Positions 9,049 through 25,399 of a stretch of DNA of 64,000 nt are shown here, one piece after another (position 1 is the stretch's first letter; the number at the start of each line of letters is the position of its first letter). The translations under genes were made by a program, and so were the position numbers. The notes beneath the pieces were generated by a model, which had not been told where the DNA came from, did no database searches, and saw only the letters and a program-made list of their open reading frames with translations. The DNA is taken from positions 1-64,000 of the forward strand of contig NZ_JABAFC010000015.1 of NCBI RefSeq assembly GCF_012843435.1. Reading direction: 5' to 3'. Source of the DNA: Psychrobacillus sp. BL-248-WT-3 (GTDB lineage: Bacteria; Bacillota; Bacilli; Bacillales_A; Planococcaceae).

Positions 9049-9366
9049 AATGGGAAAAAATGAAACTATATTTTATTTAAAAAGAATTATATTGACTTTT
9101 TTTATCAATTCAAATAATATACAAATAATTGCTAATATTTTGTAAAATTTAGTTATTTTGAGAAATAGTGTTGTAAAGTAATCATCTTGTTGTGGCAACG
9201 GGCGACTAAAGTGGAGAAAGTGAGCCAATAAGAAACCACACTTACATGTATTATAGATTTTCCTTCTCTAGCATCACACTAATAACTTAGTATTATATAA
9301 ATTTTATGGAAAAGGAGGGCATTTATTAGTTGTATAAAAATAAGAATTGGAAAGAGGAGGAAAAGA
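9049..9366 (+). other. AT-rich upstream region of the GHL10 gene
   Basis: No gene is seen. A GC-richer segment at about 9190-9241 may fold, with TGTGG and CCACA at its ends and a purine-rich interior (around GGGCGACTAAAGTGG). It was not recognised as any named riboswitch. Two Shine-Dalgarno-like sequences occur, at about 9313 (AAAGGAGGG) and 9352 (AGAGGAGG). The first could serve a 14-codon leader from TTG at 9330, which runs into the start of the GHL10 gene. This is weak evidence. Confidence 0.35.
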
Positions 9367-10896
9367 ATGAATAGAAGGTATTTTAAAGCCTTTATTGCTG
9401 TGTTACTTACGTTTACCCTATTCTTTACAAGTATCGAAACAGGAAGTGCGGTGAGTACAATCTCTCCTAAGGTTGAAATGAGAGCTTCATGGATTTCTAC
9501 TGTTGCAAATATAGACTTGAAGCCAGGTATGGATGAAGCTGCTTATACATCATGGGCTCGTTCTACCATCAAAGAGTTAGAACGAAAAAATTTTAATACA
9601 GTTGTTTTTCAAGTTAAACCAACTGCAGATGCATTATATCCATCTGAGCTAGCACCTTGGTCACGTTATATTACAGGTAGTAAACAAGGGACAAACCCAG
9701 GTTACGATCCGTTGCAAATTATGCTAGATACTGCACATGAACATGGTATGGAGTTACATGCTTGGATCAATCCTTACCGAGTTACAATGGCTAATCAAAA
9801 ACTAGAGGAACTAGCACCAAATAATATAGCTTCTATTCATCCTGAATGGGTAGTAAAGCATGGGACTCAATATTACTTAAATCCAGGAATTCCAGGCGTC
9901 CAAAGTTATTTAATAGATGCTGTAAAAGAACTAGTAACAAATTATGACGTGGATGCGGTTCACATGGATGATTATTTCTATCCAGGAGTTAATTTTGATG
10001 ACGCTGCAACCTACGCACAGTATGGTGCTGATTTTAACGACATCGGTGACTGGAGACGTAATAACGTCAATGAACTAGTTCAACATATTAATAGTAACAT
10101 CAAACAAATTAAGCCTTGGGTACAATTTGGTATTTCTCCATCAGGAATTTGGAGAAATAGTAAGGACGATCCGAATGGAAGCGAGACAAATGGATCTGCT
10201 CATTATGACTCACTTTTCGCAGACAGCAGAAAGTGGATTCAATCAGGGTATATAGACTATATAACACCGCAAGTATATTGGTCTCGTCAGTTGGCTATAG
10301 CAAACTACTCGGTGCTTCTAGAGTGGTGGAGCAGACAAACAGAAGGATATCCGATAAATCTTTACATTGGAATGGCAGATTACAAAGTTAATGCTAACTT
10401 TGATACGGCGTGGGACAATCCGTATGAATTACCAGAGCAAATTTTGGACAACCGTACAAATGGAAAGACGATGGGCCAAATGCATTTTACTCTCCGGGAT
10501 ATCCTTGCAAATAAGCTTGGCTATGCTGATATAGTAGAAAATGAAATTTATCAGTCAAAATCATTAACCCCTCCTACTCCATGGAACGGAGCAGAAGAAC
10601 CTAAAAAACCAATACTAGTTACTGCTAAAAATAATGGGAACTCTGTTCAAATATCAATTGACAATAAGAAGCGGAAAGATGCTAGGAAATATGTGATTTA
10701 CCGCTTCGAGGGCAACCAAGCAGGGGATTACAATGATCCTAAAAATATTGTCGGGGTAGTTTTTGACCAAAACGGCTTTGCTAAATTTCAAGATCAGAAC
10801 GTGGATCCGAATAAGCGATACACTTATGGTGTAACATCTATTTCTTACACAGGTGTGGAAAGCAAGAATGCCGAGGAAACAAAAACTAAAAAGTAA
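9367..10896 (+). CDS. Secreted GHL10 family glycoside hydrolase (YngK/DigH-like)
   Basis: This 509-residue protein has a signal peptide (basic MNRRYFK, hydrophobic to about residue 20, cleavage near GSA-VS). The GHL10 (DUF187) domain covers about 38-370, with RASWISTV, HAWINPYR, HMDDYFYPG, GISPSGIWR and YITPQVYW typical of this TIM-barrel family. A fibronectin-III-like module fills about 405-505. The E. coli family member DigH (YddW) cleaves denuded peptidoglycan glycan strands. Next to NagZ, NamZ and MurQ genes, an extracellular enzyme feeding glycan fragments to the importer is a coherent inference. It has its own terminator, so it is probably a separate transcription unit. Confidence 0.85.
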   Translation: MNRRYFKAFIAVLLTFTLFFTSIETGSAVSTISPKVEMRASWISTVANIDLKPGMDEAAYTSWARSTIKELERKNFNTVVFQVKPTADALYPSELAPWSRYITGSKQGTNPGYDPLQIMLDTAHEHGMELHAWINPYRVTMANQKLEELAPNNIASIHPEWVVKHGTQYYLNPGIPGVQSYLIDAVKELVTNYDVDAVHMDDYFYPGVNFDDAATYAQYGADFNDIGDWRRNNVNELVQHINSNIKQIKPWVQFGISPSGIWRNSKDDPNGSETNGSAHYDSLFADSRKWIQSGYIDYITPQVYWSRQLAIANYSVLLEWWSRQTEGYPINLYIGMADYKVNANFDTAWDNPYELPEQILDNRTNGKTMGQMHFTLRDILANKLGYADIVENEIYQSKSLTPPTPWNGAEEPKKPILVTAKNNGNSVQISIDNKKRKDARKYVIYRFEGNQAGDYNDPKNIVGVVFDQNGFAKFQDQNVDPNKRYTYGVTSISYTGVESKNAEETKTKK

Positions 10897-10905
10897 GCTA
10901 TTCAA

Positions 10906-10936
10906 AACCTGGAGCCGTTTAGGCTTCAGGTTTTTT
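10906..10936 (+). terminator. Intrinsic terminator after the GHL10 gene
   Basis: AACCTGGAGCC and GGCTTCAGGTT form an 11-bp stem with one wobble pair, followed by a T-run. Confidence 0.85.
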
Positions 10937-10985
10937 ATATGGATGAAATCTATCTTTATAAAAACATTAATTGAAATATTAAAAC

Positions 10986-11004
10986 GAAAATAATTATAAA
11001 TTTC
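10986..11004 (+). promoter_or_regulatory. Imperfect palindrome upstream of nagZ, possible MurR operator
   Basis: A 19-base AT-rich sequence running GAAA to TTTC, with seven of nine symmetric pairs, lies about 120 bp before nagZ. RpiR-family regulators often bind TGAAA-type palindromes. The assignment is tentative because the region is very AT-rich. Confidence 0.25.
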
Positions 11005-11121
11005 AAAAATTATGTTTCATTTTCAAAATAAATATGATATGTTATTTAATATTCAGACTTTATAGAAAAGTCGTTGTTATGAGAACTGTTTTTAATTGAT
11101 TAATATAAAGAAGGTGTTTAT

Positions 11122-12717
11122 TTGAGTCAACGGGTTGCGTCTATTCAAGTCGGACAATTAATGGTTGTAGGATTTAAAGGGAAAATTGCACCAGAGGGTA
11201 TCATTGACCTGATCCATCGACACCGAATTGGTGGAATTATATTGTTTAGTCATAATGTTGGTACACCTCAGGAGCTCTTAAGTTTAACATCTTCTCTTCA
11301 GCGCGAAGCACAAAAAGCAGGATATGAATATCCTCTTCTGATTTGCCTGGATCAAGAGAATGGGGTAGTACGTAGATTGGGAAAAGGTGCAACTACATTT
11401 CCTGGAGCAATGTCCATCGGGGCTACGGCAAACATAGAAAATGCTTTTGATATAAGCCTTGCCACTGGAAAAGAGCTGAAAGAGTTAGGGGTTAATTGGA
11501 ATTTAGCACCTGTACTAGATGTAAATAATAACCCGGATAATCCGGTTATTGGGGTTCGATCCTTCGGAGAAAATCCACATTTAGTAGCTGAATTCGGGAA
11601 AAATGCAATGAAGGGCTTGCAAAGTGCAGGAGTGATCACTACATTAAAGCATTTTCCAGGTCATGGTGATTCAAATGTAGATTCCCATTTATCCCTTCCA
11701 GTGATAGGTCATACAAGAGCAAGGTTAGATGAAGTAGAGCTTGTACCATTCCAAGCTTGCATTGCCGAAGGGGCAGATACTATTATGTCTGCTCATGTTT
11801 ATTTTCCTGCAATTGAGGACAGAGAAAATGTCCCTGCTACTTTGTCCAAAAAAGTAATTAGTGGGCTGTTGAGAGAGGATCTTGGATTTGACGGTGTGGT
11901 CACAACAGATTGTCTGGAAATGAAGGCAATTTCAGAAACAATTGGTACTGAAAAAGGTGCCGTTGAGGCCCTTAATGCAGGTGTAGACTTAGTAATGGTC
12001 TCACATACACATGAGGTTCAGCTACGTACGATAAAGGAATTAGAGCTAGCCTTAGCTCAGGGTGTATTACAAGAAGAGAGCTTAAAGGCTTCCCTTAATC
12101 GCATTAATAAACTGAAGGGAAAATATTTGTCATGGGAAAACACTCCCTTCCATTCCGAGTTTGTTTCACTTGGTAGTGAAGAACATAAAATATTAGCTGA
12201 GAAGGTATTTCAAGAGAGCGTTACAATCGTGAAAAATGAGGGCCTACTTCCTTTACAGATGGATCAAAATATATTAGTCATTAATCCGCCTAACCAAACT
12301 ATTTACGGTGTTGAGGATGTAAAAGAAATAAAAACAACACTAAGTGATGCAATGAAGGAATTTAGTAATCAAGTAGAGGCTTATGATTTACCGACATCAT
12401 TCACTCTTAAGGAAATGGATTTACTCATTCAAAGGGCAAAGGAATTTGATGTAATTGTTATTGGTACTCTGTCTGTATCTGCTGCAAGTTATGAGACAGA
12501 GTTATTTAATAGACTTTTAAAATTAGATATTCCGATTGTTGGAGTAGCAATGAGAAATCCATATGATTTAAGGTTTTTCCCGGATGTAACGGCATATTTA
12601 GCAACCTATGAATTTACTTATCTTGCATTAAGAACCGCAGCTCAAGCGATATTTGGAAAAGTCTCGGTTAGTGGAAAACTTCCAGTAACTTTACTTGAAA
12701 CAAAGACAACATTTTAG
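11122..12717 (+). CDS. nagZ: Beta-N-acetylglucosaminidase NagZ (GH3), apparently cytoplasmic
   Basis: NagZ removes non-reducing GlcNAc from muropeptides. The GH3 barrel shows KHFPGHGDS followed by VDSHLSLP, containing the Asp-His dyad typical of NagZ (about residues 187-189). VTTDCLEM near residue 263 holds the nucleophilic Asp. A C-terminal alpha/beta domain follows. At 531 residues it is shorter than the secreted B. subtilis NagZ. It has no signal peptide, starting MSQRVASIQVGQLMVVGF, so the substrate must be imported first. The start is TTG with AAGAAGGTG upstream. It leads the operon-like series of salvage genes. Confidence 0.93.
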   Translation: MSQRVASIQVGQLMVVGFKGKIAPEGIIDLIHRHRIGGIILFSHNVGTPQELLSLTSSLQREAQKAGYEYPLLICLDQENGVVRRLGKGATTFPGAMSIGATANIENAFDISLATGKELKELGVNWNLAPVLDVNNNPDNPVIGVRSFGENPHLVAEFGKNAMKGLQSAGVITTLKHFPGHGDSNVDSHLSLPVIGHTRARLDEVELVPFQACIAEGADTIMSAHVYFPAIEDRENVPATLSKKVISGLLREDLGFDGVVTTDCLEMKAISETIGTEKGAVEALNAGVDLVMVSHTHEVQLRTIKELELALAQGVLQEESLKASLNRINKLKGKYLSWENTPFHSEFVSLGSEEHKILAEKVFQESVTIVKNEGLLPLQMDQNILVINPPNQTIYGVEDVKEIKTTLSDAMKEFSNQVEAYDLPTSFTLKEMDLLIQRAKEFDVIVIGTLSVSAASYETELFNRLLKLDIPIVGVAMRNPYDLRFFPDVTAYLATYEFTYLALRTAAQAIFGKVSVSGKLPVTLLETKTTF

Positions 12718-12819
12718 GGGGTGAGGGATACATAAGCAGGGAGGGAAGAAGTGTTTACAAGAATAGTTTGTTTTGTTTCATAGCAATGACTATTTTAAAA
12801 AAACTAGGGGGTATTACAA

Positions 12820-14421
12820 ATGAGAGGTAAAAAGATAATTTCATTAGCACTTATAGCTGCATTAGCCTTAGCAGCATGTTCGGATGATGAAGCAAAAGGT
12901 ACTGTAGAACCAGATAGCAAAAATTTTAACAAAACAGGAATGCCCATTGTAAACGAAACAATTAAGTTGGACATTTTTGCAGGTAAGTCAGCTACTACGG
13001 CTGATGATTGGAATGACGTTCTAATACTTAATGAATATGAAAAAATGTCAAATATAGATATCACGTGGCAGCAGGTACCAGCCGATGGATTACAAGAGAA
13101 ACGTAACCTTGCGTTAGCTAGTGGAACGTTGCCAGACGTTTTTTATGCCGCAACTATTCCAGTAGGGGATTTACAAAAATATGGCCAGCAGGGCACATTT
13201 ATTCCTTTGAACGACTTAATCGAGGATTATGCACCTAATCTAAGTAAAGTGTTAGAAGCAAATCCTGAAATTAAAAAAGGACTTACATTCCCGGATGGTA
13301 ATATTTATTCCTTCCCTACTATTTATTCACCAGAGTTCACGTCTCTATTAATAGGTGCTAAGCCTTGGATTAAACAAGATTGGTTAGATCAATTAGGTAT
13401 GAAAAATCCTGAGAATTTAGATGAGCTATATGCTTACTTGAAGGCAGTAAAAGAAACCGACCTGAATGGAAATGGAAAAAATGACGAGATTCCTTTAAGT
13501 AGTGTTTCTATGACTCGTATACTACATTGGATTTCCGGTGCATTCGGTGTACAAAACAAAGGGTCTCTTCACACTTTACTTGATACCGACTCTGCTGGTG
13601 AGCTTCGTTTCTTCCCAACGGCTCCAGAGTATAAAGAAATGTTAGAGTATATGCATAAATTATATTCAGAAGGCTTAATCGATCAAGGTATTTACTCCAT
13701 TGACGTTCCTAAATATTTGGCTGCTGCAGCTGAGGAGTTGTATGGAGCTACTCAATTCTACAACCCTGTTGAACTCTTTGGAGAAGAAATCGGTAAGGAC
13801 TATGTGGTAGGAAATGCACTTGCTGGCCCGAGTGGGGAAAAACTATACACAGGAATTACCTCTCCATTAAGAGACTTAGGAAACTTTGCTATTACGAGTG
13901 AAAATAAATACCCTGCTGAAACGGTAAGATGGTTAGATCATTTCTACAGTGATGAGGGAGCTTTGATGTTCTTCATGGGAATTGAAGGGGAAACTTTTGA
14001 ACAAACAGCAGATGGACCGAAGCTATTAGATAAAATCACAAATAGTAAAGACGGACTTACGATGACACAAGAACTAGCTAAATATTTAATCAATCCAGGT
14101 GGAAATCATCCAGTAATGATTACAGATGATTACTTCACTGGATCAGAGAATGCACCAGGTGATAAAGAGGCTACGAAAGAGCTTGAACCATATTTAATAG
14201 ATGAAGTATGGCCTAACTTTACCTATACTGCAGAAGAAAATGATCGAGTATCAGTTTTAAAAGCAGATATTGATAAATACGTACAAGAAATGCAAGCGAA
14301 ATTTATAACAGGAGAAACTCCTTTAACTGAATGGGACTCTTATGTGGGAACCATTGAAAAAATGGGATTAAAGGACTTCATGGAGCTTCAACAAAAGGCG
14401 TATGAAAGATACAAAGATTAA
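12820..14421 (+). CDS. ABC transporter sugar-binding lipoprotein (LplA/YtcQ type)
   Basis: This 533-residue extracellular family 1 solute-binding protein has a lipobox (LALAAC, lipidated Cys20). The mature part begins with an Asp/Glu-rich linker. Its size matches the large binding proteins that work with LplB/YtcP permeases (CUT1 superfamily, oligosaccharides). DLNGNGKNDEIP near residue 216 resembles a calcium-binding loop. It lies between nagZ and two permease genes, so a muropeptide-derived sugar is the expected ligand; this is inference from context. CTAGGGGG upstream is a moderate ribosome binding site. The long hairpin that follows may give higher expression than the permeases. Confidence 0.9.
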   Translation: MRGKKIISLALIAALALAACSDDEAKGTVEPDSKNFNKTGMPIVNETIKLDIFAGKSATTADDWNDVLILNEYEKMSNIDITWQQVPADGLQEKRNLALASGTLPDVFYAATIPVGDLQKYGQQGTFIPLNDLIEDYAPNLSKVLEANPEIKKGLTFPDGNIYSFPTIYSPEFTSLLIGAKPWIKQDWLDQLGMKNPENLDELYAYLKAVKETDLNGNGKNDEIPLSSVSMTRILHWISGAFGVQNKGSLHTLLDTDSAGELRFFPTAPEYKEMLEYMHKLYSEGLIDQGIYSIDVPKYLAAAAEELYGATQFYNPVELFGEEIGKDYVVGNALAGPSGEKLYTGITSPLRDLGNFAITSENKYPAETVRWLDHFYSDEGALMFFMGIEGETFEQTADGPKLLDKITNSKDGLTMTQELAKYLINPGGNHPVMITDDYFTGSENAPGDKEATKELEPYLIDEVWPNFTYTAEENDRVSVLKADIDKYVQEMQAKFITGETPLTEWDSYVGTIEKMGLKDFMELQQKAYERYKD

Positions 14422-14433
14422 TAAATGAGTTGC

Positions 14434-14477
14434 TTTCTAATTTGCAGAGGAAGTATCTTCCTCTGCAATATTAGAAA
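14434..14477 (+). terminator. Long hairpin between binding-protein and permease genes (attenuator or mRNA stabiliser)
   Basis: TTGCAGAGGAAG, a TAT loop and CTTCCTCTGCAA pair perfectly, and TTTCTAAT/ATTAGAAA extends the stem to about 20 bp with one bulge. No T-run follows, so it is more likely a processing or stabilising structure or partial terminator than a full stop. Confidence 0.7.
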
Positions 14478-14500
14478 AACGGGGAGAAGGGGGTAAAAAT

Positions 14501-15457
14501 ATGCACATTAATGAAACAAAAGCAAAGCATGGGGTTGTTCCGAAAGTGAGTCGTTTTGCTAAAATTAAAAGAAATTTCCTAAAAAGCTGGCAGCTCTATG
14601 TTTTCTTACTTCCTGCGCTTTTATATTTTTTAATCTTTCACTATGTTCCTATGTATGGAGTACAAATAGCCTTTAAAAACTTTATGGCTAATCAAGGGAT
14701 TTGGGGAAGTCCGTGGATTGGATTTGATCATTTTACGCGCTTTTTTGATTCATACTACTTTTGGAGATTAATAAAAAATACAATCATTCTTAGTCTATAT
14801 CAATTGTTATTATTCCCTTTGCCAATTATTTTGGCCCTTTCATTAAACGAGCTGAAAAATGGTGCTTTTAAAAAATGGGCTCAAACACTTACATATGCTC
14901 CTCACTTTATATCCGTAGTTGTAGTAGTTGGGATGATTGTTATTTTCTTAGATCCTGTAAACGGTTTAGTCAATCAAATTATTACTCTATTTGGCGGGGA
15001 ACAAATTCGCTTTTTAGATGAGGCTAGTTGGTTTAGACATATATTTGTTTGGTCTGGGGTATGGCAAACTTTAGGGTGGAGTTCCATTATTTACTTAGCT
15101 GCATTAGCAGGCATTAATCCAGAACTACATGAGGCAGCAGAAGTCGACGGGGCGTCGAAATTACAACGAATTCTACATATCAACATACCGGGCATTTTTC
15201 CAACAATTGTTGTGCTTCTAATTTTAAACATTGGTAGTTTTATGTCTGTAGGATTCGAAAAGGTTTTACTATTACAAAATAGCTTGAACTCTGAAACCTC
15301 AGATGTCATACAAACCTATGTATATCAAGCTGGATTACTAGAAGGTCAATATAGTTTTGCAGCAGCTATTGGTTTATTTGACTCCATCATTAACATAGCT
15401 TTATTAATAACCTTCAATTATGTTGCAAGAAAAACTAGCAATAACAGCTTATGGTAA
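14501..15457 (+). CDS. ABC sugar permease, LplB type
   Basis: This 318-residue inner-membrane permease has about six hydrophobic segments, the first at about 31-50 (LYVFLLPALLYFLIFHYVP, a signature of this subfamily). The cytoplasmic EAA loop reads EAAEVDGASKLQRILHINIPGI near residue 210, where the ATPase docks. A GGAGAAGGGGG ribosome binding site precedes the ATG. It pairs with the permease 12 bp downstream. No ATPase gene is present in the locus, so a shared MsmX-type ATPase encoded elsewhere is expected, as for B. subtilis CUT1 importers. Confidence 0.92.
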   Translation: MHINETKAKHGVVPKVSRFAKIKRNFLKSWQLYVFLLPALLYFLIFHYVPMYGVQIAFKNFMANQGIWGSPWIGFDHFTRFFDSYYFWRLIKNTIILSLYQLLLFPLPIILALSLNELKNGAFKKWAQTLTYAPHFISVVVVVGMIVIFLDPVNGLVNQIITLFGGEQIRFLDEASWFRHIFVWSGVWQTLGWSSIIYLAALAGINPELHEAAEVDGASKLQRILHINIPGIFPTIVVLLILNIGSFMSVGFEKVLLLQNSLNSETSDVIQTYVYQAGLLEGQYSFAAAIGLFDSIINIALLITFNYVARKTSNNSLW

Positions 15458-15469
15458 GGAGGGGTTCAA

Positions 15470-16360
15470 ATGAAAAAAGTTAGTTTGTCTGACAAAGGCT
15501 TTGACGTTCTAAACAAAATATTCTTAACGGTCATCGTCATTTTAATAGTTTATCCGCTTGTCTTCGTTATTAGTGCCTCCATAAGTGATCCCTTAGCCGT
15601 AAGCTCAGGGAAAATGTGGTTATGGCCAGTCGATATTACGTTTGAAGGTTATAGAAAAATATTACAAAATGACTCTATTTGGTCAGGGTATCGCAATACC
15701 ATTTTATATACAGCAGTAGGAACACTTCTCCATTTATTTGTGCTGTTACCATGTGCTTATGCACTTTCTAGAAAAGAGTTGATGGGAAGTAAGTATATCT
15801 TATGGTTTGTTCTATTCACAATGATGTTCAGTGGTGGTTTAATCCCAACTTATTTAGTGGTCAAAAATTTAGGAATGCTTGATACCATTTGGGCAATTGT
15901 AATACCTGGAGTGGTTGGGGCTTGGTCTATTTTAGTAGCGAGAACTTTCTTCCAAAGCAGTATTCCGGATCAGTTAGTAGAGGCGGCTAAAATTGATGGA
16001 GCATCTGATTTTTATATGTTTATCAAAATTGTATTACCACTATCGTTGCCAATTATAGCGGTTATGGCATTGTTCCATGCAGTGGGCTTATGGAATCAAT
16101 ATTTTAATGCGTTAATTTATTTATCTGATCGGGATAAATATCCGCTTCAGCTCATTTTGAGGGAAATTTTAGTAGTAAATCAGGCACAACTAGGTGAAGG
16201 ATCTGGGGAGCAAACGGAATCGCTCATCCAACAGGTGAGGACAGGTGGCCTTATTAAATATGCGGTCATCATTATCTCTTCTTTGCCACTACTAATTGTT
16301 TACCCATTTTTACAACGATTCTTTGTCCAAGGCGTATTAATCGGTTCGATTAAAGAATAG
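15470..16360 (+). CDS. ABC sugar permease, YtcP/LplC type
   Basis: This 296-residue second permease of the importer has an N-terminal segment (FLTVIVILIVYPLVFVISASISDP) and the EAA loop EAAKIDGASDFYMFIKIVLPL near residue 165, both typical of YtcP/LplC proteins. It starts 12 bp after the LplB-type gene behind AAGGAGGGG, so the two are co-translated as a heterodimer. Substrate specificity cannot be read from the sequence; the surrounding genes point to a muramic-acid sugar or disaccharide. Confidence 0.92.
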   Translation: MKKVSLSDKGFDVLNKIFLTVIVILIVYPLVFVISASISDPLAVSSGKMWLWPVDITFEGYRKILQNDSIWSGYRNTILYTAVGTLLHLFVLLPCAYALSRKELMGSKYILWFVLFTMMFSGGLIPTYLVVKNLGMLDTIWAIVIPGVVGAWSILVARTFFQSSIPDQLVEAAKIDGASDFYMFIKIVLPLSLPIIAVMALFHAVGLWNQYFNALIYLSDRDKYPLQLILREILVVNQAQLGEGSGEQTESLIQQVRTGGLIKYAVIIISSLPLLIVYPFLQRFFVQGVLIGSIKE

Positions 16361-16370
16361 TTTTTCGTGG

Positions 16371-16490
16371 TGTCTAGCTTCGGCGCCTTGCCCCTCGGGT
16401 CAAATGGTTAAAAGCTACGGTGGCTGAAGAGCTGCCTCCTCGTATTTCCCCATTTGCCTGCCAGGGCAGAGATAGGCGCCTACGCTTTTC
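16371..16490 (+). repeat. Intergenic repeat of the Bacillaceae TGTCTAGCTNCGGCGCC type
   Basis: A GC-rich 120-bp unit begins TGTCTAGCTTCGGCGCCTTG and ends GGCGCCTACGCTTTTC. The ends carry inverted GGCGCC copies and the interior contains CCCCTCGGGTC. Such elements are scattered between genes in many Bacillaceae. It lies inside the salvage gene series, between a permease and the YesL-like gene, and can form RNA structure. Confidence 0.65.
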
Positions 16491-16518
16491 AATTTCAACA
16501 TAGAAGGGAGAGTCTACT

Positions 16519-17136: not shown

Positions 17137-17152
17137 TTAGTGGAGGAAACAA

Positions 17153-18301
17153 ATGAAGCTAGGGGTAGAAGTATTTTTGGAAGATGGCTATAAAGCTTTT
17201 ATCGGAAATCGTATAGGCTTGGTGACGAATATGACGGGTGTAAACCAAAAGCTCACACCGACTATTGAATTGTTTGTCGATCACCCTGGCATAAATCTTA
17301 CAGCTTTATATGGTCCAGAGCATGGGATACGTGGAGATGCTAAAGAAGGAGAGGGAGTACAGTCTTCGATAGACCCTTACACAAATCTTCCGGTTTACAG
17401 TCTATATGGTGATTCAAGGAAGCCTACAAAAGAGATGTTAGAATCTGTTGATGTCATTGTTTTTGATCTGCAGGATATTGGTTCAAGATATTTCACGTAC
17501 ATTTATACAATGGCATATGTAATGGAAGCCTGTGGAGAGCAAGGAAAGCAGTTTGTTGTATTGGATCGACCAAATCCAATTTCTGGTGACCGAATAGAAG
17601 GAAACCTTGTGGAAGAGGATGTTCGCTCCTTTGTTGGTTTGTTACCTATTCCAAATAGACATGGGATGACTGTAGGAGAACTTGCACAGTTGTTTAAATA
17701 TAAGTTTGGATATAATTGTGACTTAACAGTGGTTCCAATGGAGGGTTGGCTGCGATCCATGTACTTTGATGACACTCCTGTATTGTGGGTACCCCCTTCT
17801 CCAAATACTACTAATATTGATATGAATGTATTATATCCTGGAACCTGTTTAATAGAAGGAACTAACTTATCTGAAGGACGAGGCACGACAAGACCTTTTG
17901 AATGGATTGGTGCTCCTTATGTGGATGGGCAAAGGCTAGCAAAGGTATTTAATGAGAAAAAGATAGAAGGCGTTATCGCAAGGCCCATTTCTTTTAAACC
18001 AACTTATCAAAAGCATATGAATGTTATTTGCAGCGGAATTCAGCTACATATTGTCGATCGCCGCATATTAAATGCTTGGGAAACTGGTCTCTTGCTAATA
18101 GAGACAATCGCAGAAATGTATCCAAATGATTTCTCATTTATAGAAAATGGGCAGAAGAAGTATTTTTTTGACTTGTTGGCTGGATCTAAAAGTATAAGGG
18201 AACATATTTGGAATGGAACGACAACAGAATATATAGAGAATTGTCTATCTTTAATCGAAGGCTTTCAAAAAGAAAAGAAAATATACGACATATATAACTA
18301 G
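17153..18301 (+). CDS. namZ: Exo-beta-N-acetylmuramidase NamZ (DUF1343, YbbC family), no signal peptide
   Basis: This 382-residue DUF1343 protein has the family motifs GPEHGIRG (54-61), VFDLQDIGSRYFTY, DRPNPISG and YPGTCLIEGTNLSEGRGTT. B. subtilis NamZ (YbbC) is a secreted exo-lytic muramidase that releases MurNAc from the non-reducing end of glycan chains. This copy begins MKLGVEVFLEDGYKAF without signal peptide, so it should act in the cytoplasm on imported fragments, unlike the B. subtilis enzyme. GGAGGAAAC precedes the ATG. murQ follows almost without gap. Confidence 0.92.
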   Translation: MKLGVEVFLEDGYKAFIGNRIGLVTNMTGVNQKLTPTIELFVDHPGINLTALYGPEHGIRGDAKEGEGVQSSIDPYTNLPVYSLYGDSRKPTKEMLESVDVIVFDLQDIGSRYFTYIYTMAYVMEACGEQGKQFVVLDRPNPISGDRIEGNLVEEDVRSFVGLLPIPNRHGMTVGELAQLFKYKFGYNCDLTVVPMEGWLRSMYFDDTPVLWVPPSPNTTNIDMNVLYPGTCLIEGTNLSEGRGTTRPFEWIGAPYVDGQRLAKVFNEKKIEGVIARPISFKPTYQKHMNVICSGIQLHIVDRRILNAWETGLLLIETIAEMYPNDFSFIENGQKKYFFDLLAGSKSIREHIWNGTTTEYIENCLSLIEGFQKEKKIYDIYN

Positions 18302-18311
18302 GATGATTAAA

Positions 18312-19232
18312 ATGAATGATTTATCTAATTTGAATAAACTGTCAACCGAACAGAGAAATAGCCATTCCATAAACATTGATCATATGTCTACTAAAAGCAT
18401 TTTAGCAATGATTAATGAAGAGGATAAACGTGTCGCTGAATGTGTACAGGATGAGATAGATGATATTGAAAGGGCTGCAGAGGCTGTATTCAACTCATTG
18501 AAATCTGGTGGAAGACTATTTTATGTTGGAGCGGGAACAAGTGGGAGACTAGGTATTTTAGATGCGGTCGAATGTCCACCCACCTTTGGGACACCGTCCA
18601 ATTTAGTGCAGGCTGTTATGGCAGGTGGCCTTTCAGCTTTTGAAAAAGCGGTAGAGGGCGCCGAGGATAGTCCAGAGAAAGGTAAAGAAGATTTAAGAGA
18701 AAGAGCTTTGTCTAGTTATGATGTAGTGATAGGAATAGCAGCGAGTGGAAGAACGCCATATGTAATTGGGGCATTAGAATACGCTAATGAGGTTGGTGCA
18801 CAAACAATCAGTTTAACTGCAAACAAAAATTCCTCCATCAGTGAACATGCTACTATTAAAATTGAAGTAGAGACTGGACCAGAGGTAATTACGGGGTCTA
18901 CAAGGATGAAAGCAGCTACTGCACATAAGCTCATTTTAAATATGATCTCAACAACGGTTATGATTAAGCTAGGTAAGGTTTATGAAAACTTAATGGTAGA
19001 TGTATCCGTCAGCAATGAAAAGCTAAAAGAGCGAGCGAAGGGTATTATTCAAACGATTACTAACCAGACATATCAAGAGGCAGAAGAATTTTTAAAACTT
19101 GCAAATAATGAGGTAAAACCTGCAATAGTAATGATGAAAGCTAATGTGAATTATGAAGAGGCAATAGATTATATTAAACAGGCAAACGGTTTTGTAAGAA
19201 AGGCTATTGAATTAGCGGATAGGAATTTATAA
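18312..19232 (+). CDS. murQ: N-acetylmuramic acid 6-phosphate etherase MurQ
   Basis: MurQ cleaves the lactyl ether of MurNAc-6-phosphate to GlcNAc-6-phosphate and D-lactate. The 306-residue protein has the SIS fold with GAGTSGRLGILDAVECPPTFG near residue 70 and GPEVITGSTRMKAATAHK near 190, both strong MurQ signatures. The ATG at 18312 is preferred because an AGGA lies 8 bases upstream and the result fits the usual length; an in-frame ATG at 18303 adds three residues. It follows namZ directly, so it is translationally linked. It is the committed step tying this locus to muramic acid catabolism. Confidence 0.96.
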   Translation: MNDLSNLNKLSTEQRNSHSINIDHMSTKSILAMINEEDKRVAECVQDEIDDIERAAEAVFNSLKSGGRLFYVGAGTSGRLGILDAVECPPTFGTPSNLVQAVMAGGLSAFEKAVEGAEDSPEKGKEDLRERALSSYDVVIGIAASGRTPYVIGALEYANEVGAQTISLTANKNSSISEHATIKIEVETGPEVITGSTRMKAATAHKLILNMISTTVMIKLGKVYENLMVDVSVSNEKLKERAKGIIQTITNQTYQEAEEFLKLANNEVKPAIVMMKANVNYEEAIDYIKQANGFVRKAIELADRNL

Positions 19233-19246
19233 GAGGAGGAAAAAGG

Positions 19247-21094
19247 ATGAATGAACATAAGAAGCTAATCTTGGACGACTTCAATAATGCCAATCTTAGT
19301 GACTATGAAACCAATCATTCCTTTGTCTCCTCCTATTATTTATCTTTAAACAAAGATTACGTCAAGCATGGAAAGTATAGCTTAGAGGTTAGCTTTAACT
19401 ACGGAGGTTGGGTTAAAGGAAATGGAGCTATGTATATCAAGTTTAAAAAAAAGTTAGTGACACAGCAGATGCCAAAAAAGCTGGCAGTATGGGTCCATAG
19501 TGATGGAAAAACACCATGGCTACGAGCAACCATAATAGATGGAGATAATGAACGGAAGATAATTAACTTAACTAATCAAAATATAAGCTGGAATGGATGG
19601 AAATACTTAGATGTAGAGTTGGAGCAAAACTGGAAGCTTCCATTAAGGTTGGAGCAAATATATGCAGTTGAAACAAATTTGGTTAATCAAAAAGACTCCA
19701 GTATTAATGGAAAGTTCTATTTGGATCATATTACATTTGTATATGTAGATGATCAAGACTTAACGGGACCAATTTTTAGTGACATATTACCGCAAAAGGA
19801 GAAGATATATAGAAATTCCTTTGTCTTTTCTGCAGTAGTGAGCGATGACATGTCAGGTGTAGATTTCGATTCTTTAATCATGAAAATCAATAATAAATTG
19901 GTTGTTCCTTCTGTTCGAGCGAACAAAATATATTATCATGTAAAAGAGCTTCAAGAGGGAAATTGTAAAGTTAGCATCCAAGTAAAAGATTTGGCTGGTA
20001 ATTGGTCGGTACCGCATCTAGAAAAAAATTATTTAATAGATTTAAGTGAAGATCATGAATGTCCCATTATATCTGATGTCACACCAAGTGATACCGCTGT
20101 AATTCATACAGCTACACCGCGAATTGGCTTTCGACTTTGTGATGAACATAGTGGGATTGAAAAGAACGATATAATTCTTACTATTAACAATGAAAAGCAA
20201 AAAGTGTTCTATGATGAAGAAAACGGCTGGGGATTTGCAATATCTAGTACTCATTTAATAGATGGTCCACATCACCTTTCTATTCATACAAAGGATCGAG
20301 CAGGAAATGAAATGGACCCATATCAGCAAAATTTTGTTGTTCACTCTATAAAAGGGCCAATAGACGAGGACAACTTTATAGTAGGCATAATTCCAGATAC
20401 ACATACGCTGGAGCATGGAAAAGCTGCTTTAGTACATTTATTGGAGGAAGCACCTGAGTTTATCATACATATGGGTGACTTTGTAGATCAAGGAACAGAA
20501 GAGGAATTTAAGTTAGCGAAGACATCTCTATTTTCGGATATGAAGAAGCACATACCCATATTAACGCTTGCTGGGAATCATGAAGCATTTCGAGGAAACT
20601 TAACGCTATATCAGAGCATTATGGGTTCACCATCCTATCATTTTACGTATGGGAAAGTACTGTTTATCCTTTTAAATAGTGCTTTAGGGCAAAGTCTCAC
20701 GCTTTCAGACTCAACCCAGTTAACCTACCTGAAGGAAGTATTATCTACCCATGAGCAAAAGCATATTGTAGTACTTACTCATGTACCTACTAAGGACCAT
20801 TTTGGAACTGCACATGAAATGGTATATGAAGATTCCGTTCAATTAGTAGAAATACTTACCGAACACAAAAAAGAATTACCTTCTAGAGACATTGTAGTAT
20901 TATTTGGACATTTACATACGCAAGACCAATGGGAAGTTAGCGGAGTGAGATACATTATTACAGGCAATGCCTCACCAAAAAAATATGTAATGAAGCAGGA
21001 GAATAACATTGGTTACGGGCTACTCCATATACAATCTAACGGTATATATTATGAATACAAGCCTTTTAACTTAATACCTCCGGTGACCCAGTAA
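19247..21094 (+). CDS. Modular calcineurin-like phosphoesterase with N-terminal beta-sandwich domains
   Basis: This 615-residue protein lies 14 bp after murQ. Residues about 1-170 resemble a jelly-roll carbohydrate-binding module (ILDDFNNANLSDYE, ending LDHITFVYVDD). About 175-370 are two Ig-like modules (DDMSGVDFDSLIMKINN, DEHSGIEKNDIILTINN). About 375-605 are a metallophosphoesterase with PDTH, GDFVDQG, AGNHE, LTHVPTKDH and FGHLHTQ, a complete metal-binding set. No signal peptide is evident, which is odd for such architecture. The substrate is unknown; a phosphorylated or wall-derived saccharide is a guess from context. GAGGAGGAAAAAGG precedes the ATG. Confidence 0.85.
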   Translation: MNEHKKLILDDFNNANLSDYETNHSFVSSYYLSLNKDYVKHGKYSLEVSFNYGGWVKGNGAMYIKFKKKLVTQQMPKKLAVWVHSDGKTPWLRATIIDGDNERKIINLTNQNISWNGWKYLDVELEQNWKLPLRLEQIYAVETNLVNQKDSSINGKFYLDHITFVYVDDQDLTGPIFSDILPQKEKIYRNSFVFSAVVSDDMSGVDFDSLIMKINNKLVVPSVRANKIYYHVKELQEGNCKVSIQVKDLAGNWSVPHLEKNYLIDLSEDHECPIISDVTPSDTAVIHTATPRIGFRLCDEHSGIEKNDIILTINNEKQKVFYDEENGWGFAISSTHLIDGPHHLSIHTKDRAGNEMDPYQQNFVVHSIKGPIDEDNFIVGIIPDTHTLEHGKAALVHLLEEAPEFIIHMGDFVDQGTEEEFKLAKTSLFSDMKKHIPILTLAGNHEAFRGNLTLYQSIMGSPSYHFTYGKVLFILLNSALGQSLTLSDSTQLTYLKEVLSTHEQKHIVVLTHVPTKDHFGTAHEMVYEDSVQLVEILTEHKKELPSRDIVVLFGHLHTQDQWEVSGVRYIITGNASPKKYVMKQENNIGYGLLHIQSNGIYYEYKPFNLIPPVTQ

Positions 21095-21149
21095 AAAGGA
21101 AGAGGTATAGTTAAAAAGCTATTTCAAGGAAGAAATGAGTGGATAAATT

Positions 21150-22016
21150 ATGTCATCTGCCAACGGTGGACTAGTTATGCTAAATGAAATGGTGAATACA
21201 TTGCCACCCTCTGAGAAGAAAATTGCAAGATATATATTAAATCATCCCCAAGAGGCAATTTCTTTAACTGCAGTTGAATTAGGGAAAAGAAGCTCTACTA
21301 GTGGGGCGGCAGTCATCAGGCTATGTAAGTCATTAGATTTAAAAGGCTTACAAGATCTGAAGCTCAGAATTGCAGGAGATTTACAAAAGACAACAGAGCA
21401 TGGTTTTAGAGATATTGAACCGAACGAACCGATTATGTCGATAATAGATAAGATGACAAACAATAGTATTAAAACGATTCGAGAAACGGCAGAAATGCTA
21501 AATACCGAAGAATTAGAAAAAGCTATTGACCTACTTAGAGTGGCAAAGACAATCCATTTTGTTGGAGTAGGTGCTTCTAATATCATTGCACAAGATGCTC
21601 AACAAAAGTTTTTACGCATTAACAAGAACTCTTATGCCTTTCCAGATATGCATTTAGCAATGACACTCGTCGCTACTGCGGGAAAAGGGGATGTGGTGGT
21701 GGCAATTTCCTTTTCTGGAGAGACATCAGAAGTTGCAAGAGTTTTAGAGCTTGCTAAGGAAAAAGGTATCTCTATTATCAGTATTACGAAATATGGTAAC
21801 TCCATTGTTTCTAAAATTGCAGACATTAAGCTATATACGTCTGCCACAAGAGAATCAACGTTTCGTAGTGGCGCTACCTCGTCTCGAATTGGACAGCTGC
21901 AAGTGGTGGATATTTTGTTTATGGGAGTTGCTTCTCTGCAATATGAAGAAACGGTAAAGTATTTAGATGCTACTCGAGATGCGGTCAATTTTCTATCAAA
22001 GGATTCAAAGAAATAA
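21150..22016 (+). CDS. murR: RpiR-family transcriptional regulator, MurR-like
   Basis: This 288-residue protein has an N-terminal HTH_6 domain (about 10-85, with PSEKKIARYILNHPQEAISLTAVELG and SSTSGAAVIRLCKSL). A C-terminal SIS sugar-phosphate sensor follows (about 125-260, with VGVGASNIIAQDAQQKF and SFSGETSEV). MurR proteins respond to MurNAc-6-phosphate. The position among MurQ, NamZ and kinase genes makes it the likely local regulator. The ribosome binding site is weak (AAGGAAGAAATGAG about 15 bases upstream). Direct proof of the effector is lacking. Confidence 0.88.
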   Translation: MSSANGGLVMLNEMVNTLPPSEKKIARYILNHPQEAISLTAVELGKRSSTSGAAVIRLCKSLDLKGLQDLKLRIAGDLQKTTEHGFRDIEPNEPIMSIIDKMTNNSIKTIRETAEMLNTEELEKAIDLLRVAKTIHFVGVGASNIIAQDAQQKFLRINKNSYAFPDMHLAMTLVATAGKGDVVVAISFSGETSEVARVLELAKEKGISIISITKYGNSIVSKIADIKLYTSATRESTFRSGATSSRIGQLQVVDILFMGVASLQYEETVKYLDATRDAVNFLSKDSKK

Positions 22017-22025
22017 TTTATTCAT

Positions 22026-22060
22026 AAGCTGACTCTTCTATGAGTTGGCTTGTTTATTGT
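22026..22060 (+). terminator. Weak hairpin between murR and the kinase gene
   Basis: AAGCTGACTC and GAGTTGGCTT pair over 10 bp with two wobble pairs, followed by a loose T-rich tract. Probably a partial terminator. Confidence 0.45.
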
Positions 22061-22077
22061 CAAAAGGGGTGTAGAGA

Positions 22078-23055
22078 ATGTATGTATTAGGGATTGATGG
22101 CGGAGGAACGAAAACTACTGGAATCATTGCTACATCTAAAGGTGAAGTAGTAGCAAAAGCAACGGTTGGTGGAACTAATATTAATAGTACGGGCAAAATA
22201 GCTGTCCAATCAGAACTGCAAAAGCTTATAAGGGAACTAAAAGAATTGGCACCACAAAATTTCCTACTAGTAAAGCGTGTATTTGCTGGGATGGCAGGAG
22301 CGGGCAATATAACCAATCAAGACGCCTTAAAAGCCATACTACAACCTCTATTTTCCTCAGAGGTAAGTATTACTATAGACCATGATGCGATTACAGCACT
22401 TTATTCCGGGACAATAGGAAAACCAGGGGTAGTCCAAATTGCTGGAACTGGAGCAATCACATACGGTGTAAATGAAGCTTCCGATCGAGCGCGTGTAGGA
22501 GGATGGGGTCATCTGTTTGGAGATCAAGGTAGTGGATATGCCATTGGACGAGATGCATTAGAAGCTGCCTTTAAAGCGAGAGATGGTCTCATTGAACAAA
22601 CAGTATTGTCTGACCTACTTATCCAGCATTTCAATAAAGAAGAATTACCGGATATTATTCCGATTATTTATCAGGCAGAAAATCCGAAAAAGCTGATATC
22701 CTCTCTCACGGTGCTTGTTATGAAGGCGGTAGAACGTAATGATTTAATGGCCAAGCATATCATCGATCAGAATGGAGCAGAGCTTGGAATGGCTATATCT
22801 GCTCTTGTAAAACAGCTATTCAGCCAAGGGAATGATGTTATACGAGTTGTTTTAGTAGGTGGACTTTTTAATAGATATGACGTTTTGAAAGAATCAATCG
22901 AAAGAACGATTAAAAATGAAGGTATTCATGTGGATATAATCTTCCCTAAAATATTTCCGGCAGGCGGGGCAGTAGTTGCTGCTCTTTTAGAAGAAAATAT
23001 AGAAATAGATGAGTATTTTTTAGAAACATTTAATAGAACAAACTATGATAATTGA
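22078..23055 (+). CDS. murK: BadF/BadG-type sugar kinase, probable MurNAc/GlcNAc kinase MurK
   Basis: This 325-residue ASKHA-fold ATPase has the phosphate-1 loop GIDGGGTKTTG (residues 5-15), a second motif with DHDAITALYSG, GTGAITYGV and GGWGHLFGDQGSGYAIG, matching the N-acetylglucosamine kinase branch of the BadF family. Clostridium acetobutylicum MurK, of this family, phosphorylates MurNAc and GlcNAc at O6 and is linked to murQ. Here it would supply MurNAc-6-phosphate to MurQ, which is needed because the ABC importer, unlike a PTS, delivers unphosphorylated sugar. AAAAGGGGTG precedes the ATG. The symbol is inferred from context. Confidence 0.88.
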   Translation: MYVLGIDGGGTKTTGIIATSKGEVVAKATVGGTNINSTGKIAVQSELQKLIRELKELAPQNFLLVKRVFAGMAGAGNITNQDALKAILQPLFSSEVSITIDHDAITALYSGTIGKPGVVQIAGTGAITYGVNEASDRARVGGWGHLFGDQGSGYAIGRDALEAAFKARDGLIEQTVLSDLLIQHFNKEELPDIIPIIYQAENPKKLISSLTVLVMKAVERNDLMAKHIIDQNGAELGMAISALVKQLFSQGNDVIRVVLVGGLFNRYDVLKESIERTIKNEGIHVDIIFPKIFPAGGAVVAALLEENIEIDEYFLETFNRTNYDN

Positions 23056-23064
23056 GGTGAAAGC

Positions 23065-24012
23065 ATGCAGTTGATAGAATGGCAGTTAGATAGACTAGAT
23101 GAATTGGTGAGTTTGTGGAATCAAGAGCTAGGAAAAGATTTTCCAATGCGAAAGGAGCTATTTGAGCAAAATAGTTTCCAGGATGAAAATATTTGCTATG
23201 ATGCTTCGCGAATAGCTGTAAATGAGGAAGGTCAAATAATCGGGTTCGTAGTAGGTAAAAGGTGGCAGGAAGAAGTAGAGATACCGATGAAGGATAAAAC
23301 AGGCTGGATTCAAGTAATCCTTGTTCATCATGAGTACCGTAACAAGGGAATCGGATCTAATCTATTAAGACATGCAGAGGAGGCTTTTCAATTAGCTGGA
23401 ATGCAAGAAATATTATTAGGAAAAGACCCATGGCATTATTTCCCTGGTGTCCCGTTAGATAGCTATGATAATTGGTTTGAAACACGAGGCTATCATTCTT
23501 TTGGAAAAGAGTTCGATATGCTCTGTAAATATGAGGGAGAGGTAGCGAAAGAATTACCTGCCCTACCTAATGTTGAATTTTCGATATTAAAGCATGAGGA
23601 AAAGGAGGCGTTCCTTGCATTTTTACATCGATGCTTCCCAGGGAGGTGGGAATACGAGGCTCATCAATATTTCCAAAAGGGAGGGAATGGCAGAGAGTTT
23701 GCCGTTCTTAAAAAAGAAAATAAGATTATTGGATTTTCAAGGATAAACGATAATAGCTCACCTTTAATCGCTCAAAACGTGTATTGGGCACCTCTATTCA
23801 GCCAAGAATTAGGGGGGATAGGACCGTTGGGAGTCGATTCCGTAGAACGCGGTAATGGCTACGGTATAGCAATCGTACAAGCTGCTATAGCTTTTCTAAG
23901 AAATAGAGACATTAAACATATTGTCATTGATTGGACAGGGCTTGTCGATTTTTATCGTAAATTAGATTATGAGGTTTGGAAAGGCTATACCTCTTATAGA
24001 AAAGTGCTCTAA
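23065..24012 (+). CDS. Double-GNAT acetyltransferase in the salvage locus
   Basis: This 315-residue protein has two GNAT modules. The first has the acetyl-CoA pyrophosphate loop HHEYRNKGIGSNLL (about residues 89-102). The second half (about 170-315) ends with GPLGVDSVERGNGYGIAIVQAA and IDWTGLVDFYRKLDYE, also GNAT-like. The substrate is unknown. N-acetylation of a free amino sugar such as glucosamine or muramic acid, or acetylation of a drug-like compound, are both possible; context favours a sugar. It begins 9 bp after murK behind TTGAGGTGAAAG, so it is surely cotranscribed. Confidence 0.85.
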   Translation: MQLIEWQLDRLDELVSLWNQELGKDFPMRKELFEQNSFQDENICYDASRIAVNEEGQIIGFVVGKRWQEEVEIPMKDKTGWIQVILVHHEYRNKGIGSNLLRHAEEAFQLAGMQEILLGKDPWHYFPGVPLDSYDNWFETRGYHSFGKEFDMLCKYEGEVAKELPALPNVEFSILKHEEKEAFLAFLHRCFPGRWEYEAHQYFQKGGNGREFAVLKKENKIIGFSRINDNSSPLIAQNVYWAPLFSQELGGIGPLGVDSVERGNGYGIAIVQAAIAFLRNRDIKHIVIDWTGLVDFYRKLDYEVWKGYTSYRKVL

Positions 24013-24052
24013 TATGCTTTTATTATTAATTTCTTTATAGGGAGAGATGTAT

Positions 24053-25237
24053 TTGGAAGAGCAAACGAGCTATGTAGTTGGTCTTATGTCCGGAACATCA
24101 CTTGATGGAGTAGATGCAGCTCTCATTAAAATGATTGATACTAATGACAATTTACAAATAGATTTGGTAACGTATTTGTCACTCCCTTACTCAAGGGAAC
24201 TAAAACAAAAGCTTAGAGAAATTTGCACTCCTGAAATAGCAAAAATAGCAGACATTAGTAGCATGAATATGTATTTAGCAGAAATCTTCTCTGAAGCTAC
24301 CTTATCTATTATTCAACAAGCAAATTTAACGCCGCAAGATATTTTACTTGTAAGCTCCCATGGTCAAACTATCTTTCACCAGCCGGCTTCAATTAACATT
24401 GAAGGAAGAGATATTACATCCACTCTACAAATAGGAGACATAGCAGTAATTGCTGAACGTACCGGTATTACAACTGTTGGTGATTTTAGGACTCGAGACA
24501 TGGCTGTAGGTGGAGGGGGAGCTCCGTTAGTCCCTTATGCTGATCATATGCTTTATACGAATAAGAGTCATGGGAGAGTGCTCGTTAATATAGGAGGAAT
24601 TGCTAACATAACTGTCCTTCCGAAAGGAGCTACAGCATCGGAGGTTATTGCATACGATACCGGCCCGGGAAATATGATCATTGATGCATTTGTCAATTGG
24701 GCAACAAATGGGAAGCATGACTATGATCGCGAGGGAGCTATAGCAGCAAGCGGTAAGGTGAATGAAAAATGGCTAACTAAGCTACTTGCTTATCCGTTCT
24801 TCCATCAGAATTACCCAAAAAGCACCGGTAGAGAGATGTTTGGAACTCAATTTGCGAGAATACTGTGGGAGGAAGCTGAACATCTAGCTATTAGTCTGGA
24901 GGATCGGATTGCTACCATTACTGCATTAACTGCACGGACGATTGCTACAGAGATTTTAAAATTTATTGAATCTGCAGAGATAGAGGAAGTAATCGTTAGC
25001 GGCGGAGGGAGACATAATTTGACACTATTCAAAAGCCTGCAAGTTTATATGTCCGATCGTGTTTCTGTGGTTGGAATGGAAGCATATGAAATAAGCGCAG
25101 ATGCTAAAGAGACGGTAATTTTCGCTTTATTAGGCTATCAATGCTTAAAGAAAAAAACAAATAACCTTCCTGCCGCTACCGGGGCTAAAAAAGCAGTTGT
25201 TATGGGCAAAATAGCTTGGGGAAATTTGATTGTGTAG
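24053..25237 (+). CDS. anmK: Anhydro-N-acetylmuramic acid kinase AnmK
   Basis: AnmK hydrolyses the 1,6-anhydro ring and phosphorylates O6, giving MurNAc-6-phosphate for MurQ. The family motif VGLMSGTSLDGVDAALIK lies near residue 8. VSSHGQTIFHQP, GDFRTRDMAVGGGGAPLVP, NIGGIANITVLP, YDTGPGNMIIDAF and VSGGGRHN all match. The TTG at 24053 is preferred because AGGGAG lies about 8 bases upstream; the ATG at 24047 sits only 2 bases from it. The length of 394 is normal. It is the last gene of the salvage series. Confidence 0.95.
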   Translation: MEEQTSYVVGLMSGTSLDGVDAALIKMIDTNDNLQIDLVTYLSLPYSRELKQKLREICTPEIAKIADISSMNMYLAEIFSEATLSIIQQANLTPQDILLVSSHGQTIFHQPASINIEGRDITSTLQIGDIAVIAERTGITTVGDFRTRDMAVGGGGAPLVPYADHMLYTNKSHGRVLVNIGGIANITVLPKGATASEVIAYDTGPGNMIIDAFVNWATNGKHDYDREGAIAASGKVNEKWLTKLLAYPFFHQNYPKSTGREMFGTQFARILWEEAEHLAISLEDRIATITALTARTIATEILKFIESAEIEEVIVSGGGRHNLTLFKSLQVYMSDRVSVVGMEAYEISADAKETVIFALLGYQCLKKKTNNLPAATGAKKAVVMGKIAWGNLIV

Positions 25238-25264
25238 GCTGATTGAGACAGCTAAAATATCAAA

Positions 25265-25399
25265 ACTGCGTGTGTTAATGACGGATGATGACTTATCGCT
25301 CCCCCCGAGTAAACCGTCTGGCTAGTGCGAAAAATCAATTTTACTCTTTGATCTAATGTTTCTTTGCATCATAAGTCATCCCTACCCTTTAACAAAGCC
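25265..25399 (+). mobile_element. MITE-like repeat element, truncated copy C
   Basis: This copy matches the right third of copy A, including the AAATCAATTTTACTC block and the TTTCTTTGCATCATAA block. It ends CTTTAACAAAGCC, the terminal inverted repeat. The left part, including the other end and half of the GC-rich hairpin, is missing or degenerate. It lies right after anmK, at the junction with the conserved tig region. Confidence 0.7.

Follow-up and report, generated by a model that had tools for sequence, protein, structure and literature searches.

The 64,000-nucleotide stretch of Psychrobacillus sp. BL-248-WT-3 analyzed here (contig NZ_JABAFC010000015.1, positions 1 to 64,000; hereafter the window) belongs to a 3.8-Mb genome in 91 contigs and carries an island of 13 genes, all on the plus strand, between a ysoA-like gene (7949-8944) and tig (25727-27007). 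Taken as a whole, the island is best explained as an import-first route of cell-wall glycan breakdown, a reading that we hold with somewhat better than even confidence. The genes from nagZ to anmK span 11122-25237 on one strand as uninterrupted open reading frames (ORFs), according to the ORF list and family scans. A preliminary description of this DNA had named these genes and their shared direction, and all of them were present; its gene list left out a metallophosphoesterase, between murQ and murR, and the GHL10 gene, which, and not nagZ, occupies its starting coordinate of 9367. The features are as follows, with the family evidence in parentheses.

9367-10896, plus strand: secreted GHL10 protein, possibly a Cwp19-like lytic transglycosylase, of uncertain membership in the island (PF02638, E = 3.9e-83)
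10899-10939, plus strand: terminator-like inverted repeat 3' of the GHL10 gene (18-nt arms, 83% complementary)
10965-11065, plus strand, limits approximate: conserved non-coding block 5' of nagZ, presumed promoter or operator (conservation with P. faecigallinarum)
11122-12717, plus strand: nagZ, GH3 beta-N-acetylglucosaminidase without a signal peptide (PF00933, E = 1.9e-91)
12820-14421, plus strand: lipoprotein solute-binding protein (SBP) of an oligosaccharide-binding group (PF01547/PF13416)
14501-15457, plus strand: importer permease 1 (PF00528, E = 3.5e-15)
15470-16360, plus strand: importer permease 2 (PF00528, E = 2.3e-13)
16519-17136, plus strand: YesL-like DUF624 membrane protein (PF04854, E = 1.2e-30)
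17153-18301, plus strand: namZ, exo-N-acetylmuramidase without a signal peptide (NamZ_N and NamZ_C: PF07075, E = 1.2e-86; PF20732, E = 3.7e-47)
18303-19232, plus strand: murQ, N-acetylmuramic acid 6-phosphate etherase (TIGR00274, 404 bits, cut-off 302)
19247-21094, plus strand: metallophosphoesterase of 615 amino acids with N-terminal beta and Ig-like domains, without a signal peptide (PF00149, E = 1.7e-10; Big_13)
21150-22016, plus strand: MurR/RpiR-type regulator, HTH_6 plus SIS (PF01418, PF01380)
22078-23055, plus strand: BadF-type sugar kinase, probable N-acetylmuramic acid/N-acetylglucosamine kinase (PF01869, E = 7.8e-42)
23065-24012, plus strand: double GNAT protein, probable glucosaminide N-acetyltransferase (5kf1, E = 9.4e-54; C-terminal part of 4zm6, E = 7.4e-25)
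24047-25237, plus strand: anmK, anhydro-N-acetylmuramic acid kinase (PF03702, E = 5.5e-105; NF007148, 458 bits, cut-off 387)

In the proposed route, a secreted transglycosylase, perhaps the neighboring GHL10 protein, would cut glycan strands, and the ATP-binding cassette (ABC) importer, composed of the SBP, two permeases, and a MalK-type ATPase from elsewhere, would take in peptide-free oligosaccharides of N-acetylglucosamine (GlcNAc) and N-acetylmuramic acid (MurNAc), many of them ending in anhydroMurNAc. In the cytosol, the GNAT protein would first re-acetylate the glucosamine ends of de-N-acetylated wall, and NagZ and NamZ would then take turns at the non-reducing end, releasing GlcNAc and MurNAc. 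The BadF-type kinase would phosphorylate inner MurNAc (and GlcNAc), and AnmK the single terminal anhydroMurNAc; both would yield MurNAc 6-phosphate for MurQ, with NagA and NagB, encoded elsewhere, completing the breakdown. Because a transglycosylase-cut chain contains several MurNAc residues and one anhydroMurNAc, one substrate would need both kinases; on this enzyme chemistry, two kinases would serve one chain, and a second food source is not needed. We infer the specificities of all the enzymes and of the importer, the substrate, the pathway flow, the removal of peptides by an amidase encoded outside the island, and GHL10 co-regulation. If the route is correct, an ABC importer and cytosolic exo-digestion would replace the phosphotransferase system (PTS) and the extracellular steps of the Gram-positive reference organism, Bacillus subtilis. 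It would also give a concrete reason for retaining AnmK and a MurNAc kinase together, suggest a class of ligands to test for a family of importers, and, through the GNAT protein, tie salvage to a lysozyme-resistance trait, the de-N-acetylation of the wall.

The enzyme assignments draw on structural and family matches. The closest solved structure to the BadF-type kinase is 8zo3, a MurNAc/GlcNAc kinase (E = 1.2e-42), with NAGK among the further PDB matches (2ch6, E = 6.4e-17), and we regard the protein as a probable MurNAc/GlcNAc kinase. AnmK exceeds the curated cut-offs for membership of both of its families. The earlier proposal that a MurK-type kinase and AnmK both feed MurQ is a fair reading. 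It does not follow, as was also proposed, that the locus may live on wall debris of other bacteria: a secreted relative of a lytic transglycosylase adjoins the putative operon, and turnover of the cell's own wall would suffice. We set scavenging aside as unnecessary, not as disproved. The closest structures to NagZ, whose gene starts with TTG, are 4zm6 (E = 1.7e-120), 6k5j, and YbbD (3bmx, E = 6.1e-93); against the NCBIfam beta-N-acetylhexosaminidase model, NagZ scores 201.9 bits, narrowly under the cut-off of 207. The best match to the GNAT protein, 5kf1, is followed by two 5kf1 variants and then by the C-terminal part of 4zm6. A single protein, 4zm6, is therefore the top match of NagZ and the fourth of the GNAT protein, and since it joins counterparts of the two, re-acetylation and glucosaminidase action would belong together. 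The PDB record of 5kf1 states only "predicted acetyltransferase"; we take it to be the glucosaminide N-acetyltransferase GlmA. The GNAT protein, which had been listed without a role, probably re-acetylates glucosaminides.

Uptake independent of the PTS and fed by an importer, as had been suggested by contrast with the B. subtilis transporter MurP, is supported. A PTS_EIIC search of the genome returned one match, which scores as a GlcNAc-specific transporter (TIGR01998, 658 bits, cut-off 553), and so no MurP was found. The island importer pairs a large FusA/AlgQ-type SBP with two permeases, which we take to be of the LplB (permease 1) and YtcP (permease 2) types. The island contains no ATPase gene; two MalK-type ATPase genes lie at other sites in the genome, and nagA and nagB adjoin each other on another contig. 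By sequence, the relatives of the SBP are FusA, AlgQ1/AlgQ2, and chondroitin-disaccharide binders, and a fold search with its model (predicted local distance difference test [pLDDT] 84) returned the same group, from which the island protein differs in its wall-sugar gene context. Where a sugar ligand is stated for a close SBP structure, it is a fructo-, alginate, or chondroitin oligosaccharide. Given this oligosaccharide-binding group and the lack of signal peptides on NagZ and NamZ, digestion is probably cytosolic, and for the SBP ligand an oligosaccharide is a likelier candidate than the free MurNAc implied by the preliminary description. The SBP also contains an EF-hand-like stretch, DLNGNGKNDE, spotted by eye.

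Much of the island gene set recurs in other genera. We collected 44 loci from one NamZ search of genome contigs, each with flanks of up to 10 kb. By design these are close NamZ relatives, so the figures describe that branch rather than all NamZ proteins, and gene counts are lower bounds because the loci stop at 10 kb. At least two ABC-permease matches lie near namZ in 38 of the 44, and in 35 of the 36 that have a NamZ of 60% identity or more, whereas a PTS match appears in one (L050; query, GlcNAc EIIBC). Other neighbors include murR (37 loci), murQ (33), nagZ (29), a GlmA-like GNAT gene (26), badF (21), a second GNAT gene (21), anmK (17), and DUF624 (16), often a companion of this importer type. 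A PIG-L deacetylase gene accompanies acetyltransferase genes in 21 of the 44 (L044, 3008-3724, and 20 others), although the two activities are opposed.

The importers beside namZ are of several kinds, and their SBPs fall into three or more divergent groups. Nine loci have an SBP that shares 50% identity or more with that of the window, a second group is ~35% identical, and C-type permeases occur in 22 NamZ loci where the SBP was not found with the window SBP as query at an E threshold of 1e-6. A parallel cluster is present elsewhere in five genomes of the genus (G003, G004, G008, G015, and G016) and in one of another genus (G045). It contains badF, a beta-lactamase-family gene, PIG-L, nagZ, anmK, namZ, murQ, the second GNAT gene, and murR, together with a different SBP and two permeases; its gene families were checked on the G015 copy. 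Four of the six clusters add a GlmA-like GNAT gene, three also hold nagA, nagB, and a MalK-type ATPase gene, and both kinases were matched in all six. In G016 (L153, 12188-13329), anmK was matched in two pieces and is probably disrupted, the rest of the cluster being complete. Of all the evidence, the parallel cluster with its divergent importer lends the most weight to the pathway reading. Bacillales may possess general import-first wall-glycan degradation, with interchangeable ABC oligosaccharide importers, re-N-acetylation, cytosolic NagZ and NamZ, AnmK for the chain end, and a BadF kinase for inner residues; we hold this broader proposition tentatively, at close to an even chance.

Within the genus, the island at this position is uncommon. 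The preliminary description had proposed a search of related genomes for the same gene order. Of 19 genus genomes, three (G000, the conspecific G101, and G001) have the island between ysoA and tig; in the other 16, ysoA directly adjoins tig. Among the named relatives returned by the NamZ search, P. faecigallinarum ranks first, with a NamZ that is 84% identical. In an 18-genome set of the genus, NamZ and AnmK are present in the identical seven genomes. Among 101 related genomes, NamZ occurs in 13 of 16 with AnmK versus 11 of 85 without it (Fisher p = 1.2e-7, ignoring relatedness), an association that is more than chance.

The GHL10 gene is an uncertain member of the island. The sole PDB match of its product at E <= 0.01 is Cwp19 (E = 6.3e-110 over 372 residues), and like Clostridioides difficile Cwp19 it combines a GHL10 domain with a signal-like hydrophobic N terminus, although the family scan matched no CWB2 domain in it; a lytic transglycosylase activity similar to that of Cwp19 is possible. 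Cwp19 products comprise GlcNAc-anhydroMurNAc muropeptides and also tetrasaccharides whose reducing end is a MurNAc free of peptide (PMC6016235). That the gene is instead an unrelated neighbor, with anhydro-sugars supplied by other transglycosylases of the same or other bacteria, is a serious contender to which we give somewhat less than even weight, and it is compatible with the rest of the favored explanation. The terminator-like repeat separates the gene from nagZ, GHL10 lies near namZ in only 1 of the 44 NamZ loci, and G011 carries GHL10 without NamZ or AnmK. Set against this, GHL10 sits with the island between ysoA and tig in all three island genomes, two of which are one species, and a transglycosylase product fits AnmK biochemically. 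The inverted repeat at 10899-10939 was not picked up by a terminator scan and is poorly conserved in L032. In G101, a transposase-like ORF, recognized by eye, lies between GHL10 and nagZ (L214:3727-5103); similar sequence, split over two ORFs, occupies positions 2-795 of the window.

The importer could also serve another amino-sugar glycan and have the MurNAc genes as neighbors for other reasons, which we consider unlikely. In its favor, the nearest relatives of the SBP outside murein loci adjoin other sugar genes: of 13 stretches around such SBPs, seven have a nagA-type gene, most with aldolase, SIS, hexose kinase, and ROK genes in addition, one (G312) has genes for sulfatases, an alpha-L-fucosidase, GH35, and a sulfatase-modifying enzyme, and five have neither set. 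SBP-first searches returned, among 101 genomes and besides the window, only G001 above 45% identity (94%, with the island); the best other matches in 398 genomes were three G312 SBPs (49-52%) on a contig apart from NamZ. Conversely, in a 36-row tree the window SBP falls in a 12-row group (support 88/81) made up entirely of SBPs from NamZ loci, a biased test given that NamZ was the query that yielded the NamZ-locus rows and SBPs were the queries for the rest. Compared with a first tree of 34 rows, this second one lacks the distant L045 (a NamZ locus), L234, and L235 and has five additional rows; neither includes the SBP of L249 or the truncated SBP of L034. L061, also a NamZ locus, falls outside the window group, and constraining it inside was not rejected (approximately unbiased test, p-AU 0.1). 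A second group of eight rows, again all from NamZ loci, is distant from that of the window. Divergent importers adjoin namZ in other loci, as would be expected if this place demands a wall-glycan importer. In L225-L229, L233, and L248, a related importer lies beside nagA-type, aldolase, SIS, hexose kinase, and ROK genes, likely an amino-sugar oligosaccharide cluster.

Signal peptides were gauged by the plain Kyte-Doolittle hydrophobicity of the first 60 residues, not by a trained predictor. Signal-like maxima were obtained for the GHL10 protein (2.63) and the SBP (2.85), in contrast to NagZ (1.62) and NamZ (1.10), whose ORFs start at the first ATG, GTG, or TTG after a stop and hence have no longer start. 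Most of the 44 loci resemble the window in this respect. Values of at least 2 were reached by NamZ in 4 of the 44 (L066, L067, L068, and L070) and by NagZ in 5 of the 29 where NagZ was found (L066, L067, L069, L070, and L053); in the first four of these, NagZ has ~700 residues, and the high value in L053 falls in the conserved core. NagZ and NamZ thus come in two kinds, predicted secreted and predicted internal, and the window has the latter. Import of monosaccharides (MurNAc, anhydroMurNAc), with the glycan fully digested outside and NagZ and NamZ exported non-classically or acting on leakage, would suit kinases whose families act on monosaccharides and would parallel the sequential extracellular degradation of B. 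subtilis (PMC5061867), but it is quite improbable in view of the leaderless enzymes of the window, the longer NagZ and NamZ with signal-like N termini in L066, L067, and L070, and the oligosaccharide group of the SBP.

Several further observations weigh against import first. The second PDB match of the BadF-type kinase is a hexokinase (2e2n, E = 1e-29), the MurNAc kinase 8ow9 matches it at only E = 9.6e-5, and its sole NCBIfam match reaches 97 bits, far under the cut-off of 370. AnmK matches levoglucosan kinase (E = 1.4e-70) ahead of AnmK structures (best E = 1.7e-64). Both kinases occur together near namZ in 9 of the 44 loci, a lower bound at the 10-kb limit. Three loci with secreted-type NamZ (L066, L068, and L070) also have ABC-permease matches; importer and internal digestion are therefore not strictly linked. 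Family scans detected no amidase in the island, and 22 of the 44 loci hold a beta-lactamase-family gene, a possible substitute for one. For the SBP, a wall-oligosaccharide ligand is predicted from genomic context only.

Parts of the island have precedents. We take B. subtilis ybbC to be NamZ and presume that in Clostridium acetobutylicum murK and glmA are neighbors with an ABC transporter nearby. C. acetobutylicum would then resemble the island in having a MurNAc/GlcNAc kinase (MurK) beside a double GNAT protein (presumably GlmA), whereas the island joins this pair with NamZ, NagZ, and AnmK. MurK of C. acetobutylicum is named in PMC10465942 and PMC5061867. The B. subtilis murQ-murR-murP-amiE-nagZ-ybbC cluster (PMC5061867) brings together MurQ, a MurR-type regulator, NagZ, and NamZ, as does the island, which in contrast has no MurP or AmiE-type gene, has NagZ and NamZ without signal peptides, and adds an ABC importer, a BadF kinase, a GNAT protein, and AnmK. 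A preprint on Mycobacterium smegmatis (PMC13041923) names AnmK, MurK, MurQ, and NagB together, so both kinases and MurQ occur in one organism there too, with NagE named rather than an ABC importer. Recycling of the Escherichia coli type (PMC5061867) shares AnmK, cytoplasmic NagZ, and MurQ but uses AmpG, in place of which the island has an ABC importer, plus NamZ and a MurNAc kinase. Agrobacterium YejBEF-YepA (PMC9790009) is an ABC transporter that recycles wall fragments, as proposed for the island; it imports muropeptides in a Gram-negative host. A 2026 review places Gram-positive NagZ outside the cell or in the cytoplasm and attributes uptake mainly to ABC transporters (PMC13204101). We found no description of the combination and its one-chain logic in the open-licence literature searched. 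The preliminary description called the route little described, but importer plus NamZ is common among the close NamZ relatives examined, and ABC import, cytosolic NagZ, and both kinases are already in print piecewise. The island is a variant of known wall-sugar salvage.

In the metallophosphoesterase, residues D384, D411, N444, H445, H512, and H557 are invariant across six aligned rows, and H386 and H555 are substituted in L062 and L063. The top fold matches to its model (pLDDT 83.5) were purple acid phosphatases and Ig-domain proteins with low template modeling scores, and the fold search gave no hint of a substrate. A PADLOC match (E = 1.2e-4) was put down to the common phosphoesterase domain. 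The gene is present in 5 of the 44 NamZ loci and the second GNAT gene (gnat2) in 21, with both together in none (one-sided p = 0.03); the two mostly occupy the same position, 5' of murR. As a guess, the protein might be a phosphodiesterase acting on wall-polymer attachment at MurNAc C6.

The regulator at 21150-22016 matches NCBIfam MurR/RpiR models, but under their cut-offs. The block at 10965-11065 is conserved with P. faecigallinarum within otherwise divergent sequence. Fifteen copies of a palindrome, TGAAA-W5-TTTCA, are spread over 11 of 50 loci, and 13 of these copies lie no more than ~350 bp from a cluster gene on the locus map. Each of the 19 alternative orders of the arm letters occurs zero to one time, but the loci counted are also those in which the motif first drew attention. 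The palindrome lies 5' of many cluster genes, for example at L068:3007 and 9755 and at L154:1517, and is a candidate MurR-family operator. As an operator in the window it was rejected: there is no exact copy, 24 inexact matches compare with a chance mean of 31.8, and the match at 11005, with three mismatches, is no better than chance. No cre-like or RpiR-like sites were found within 8900-26000 with the patterns applied. Composition gave no signal of recent foreign DNA, with G+C at 35-39% (2-kb windows, 10001-26000) versus 29-41% in the rest of the window. Farther downstream, positions 42781-43081, 3' of a valS-like gene, hold two blocks of imperfect 21-bp tandem repeats, of the AACCTTGCRGAGA and AAGTGTTGC types.

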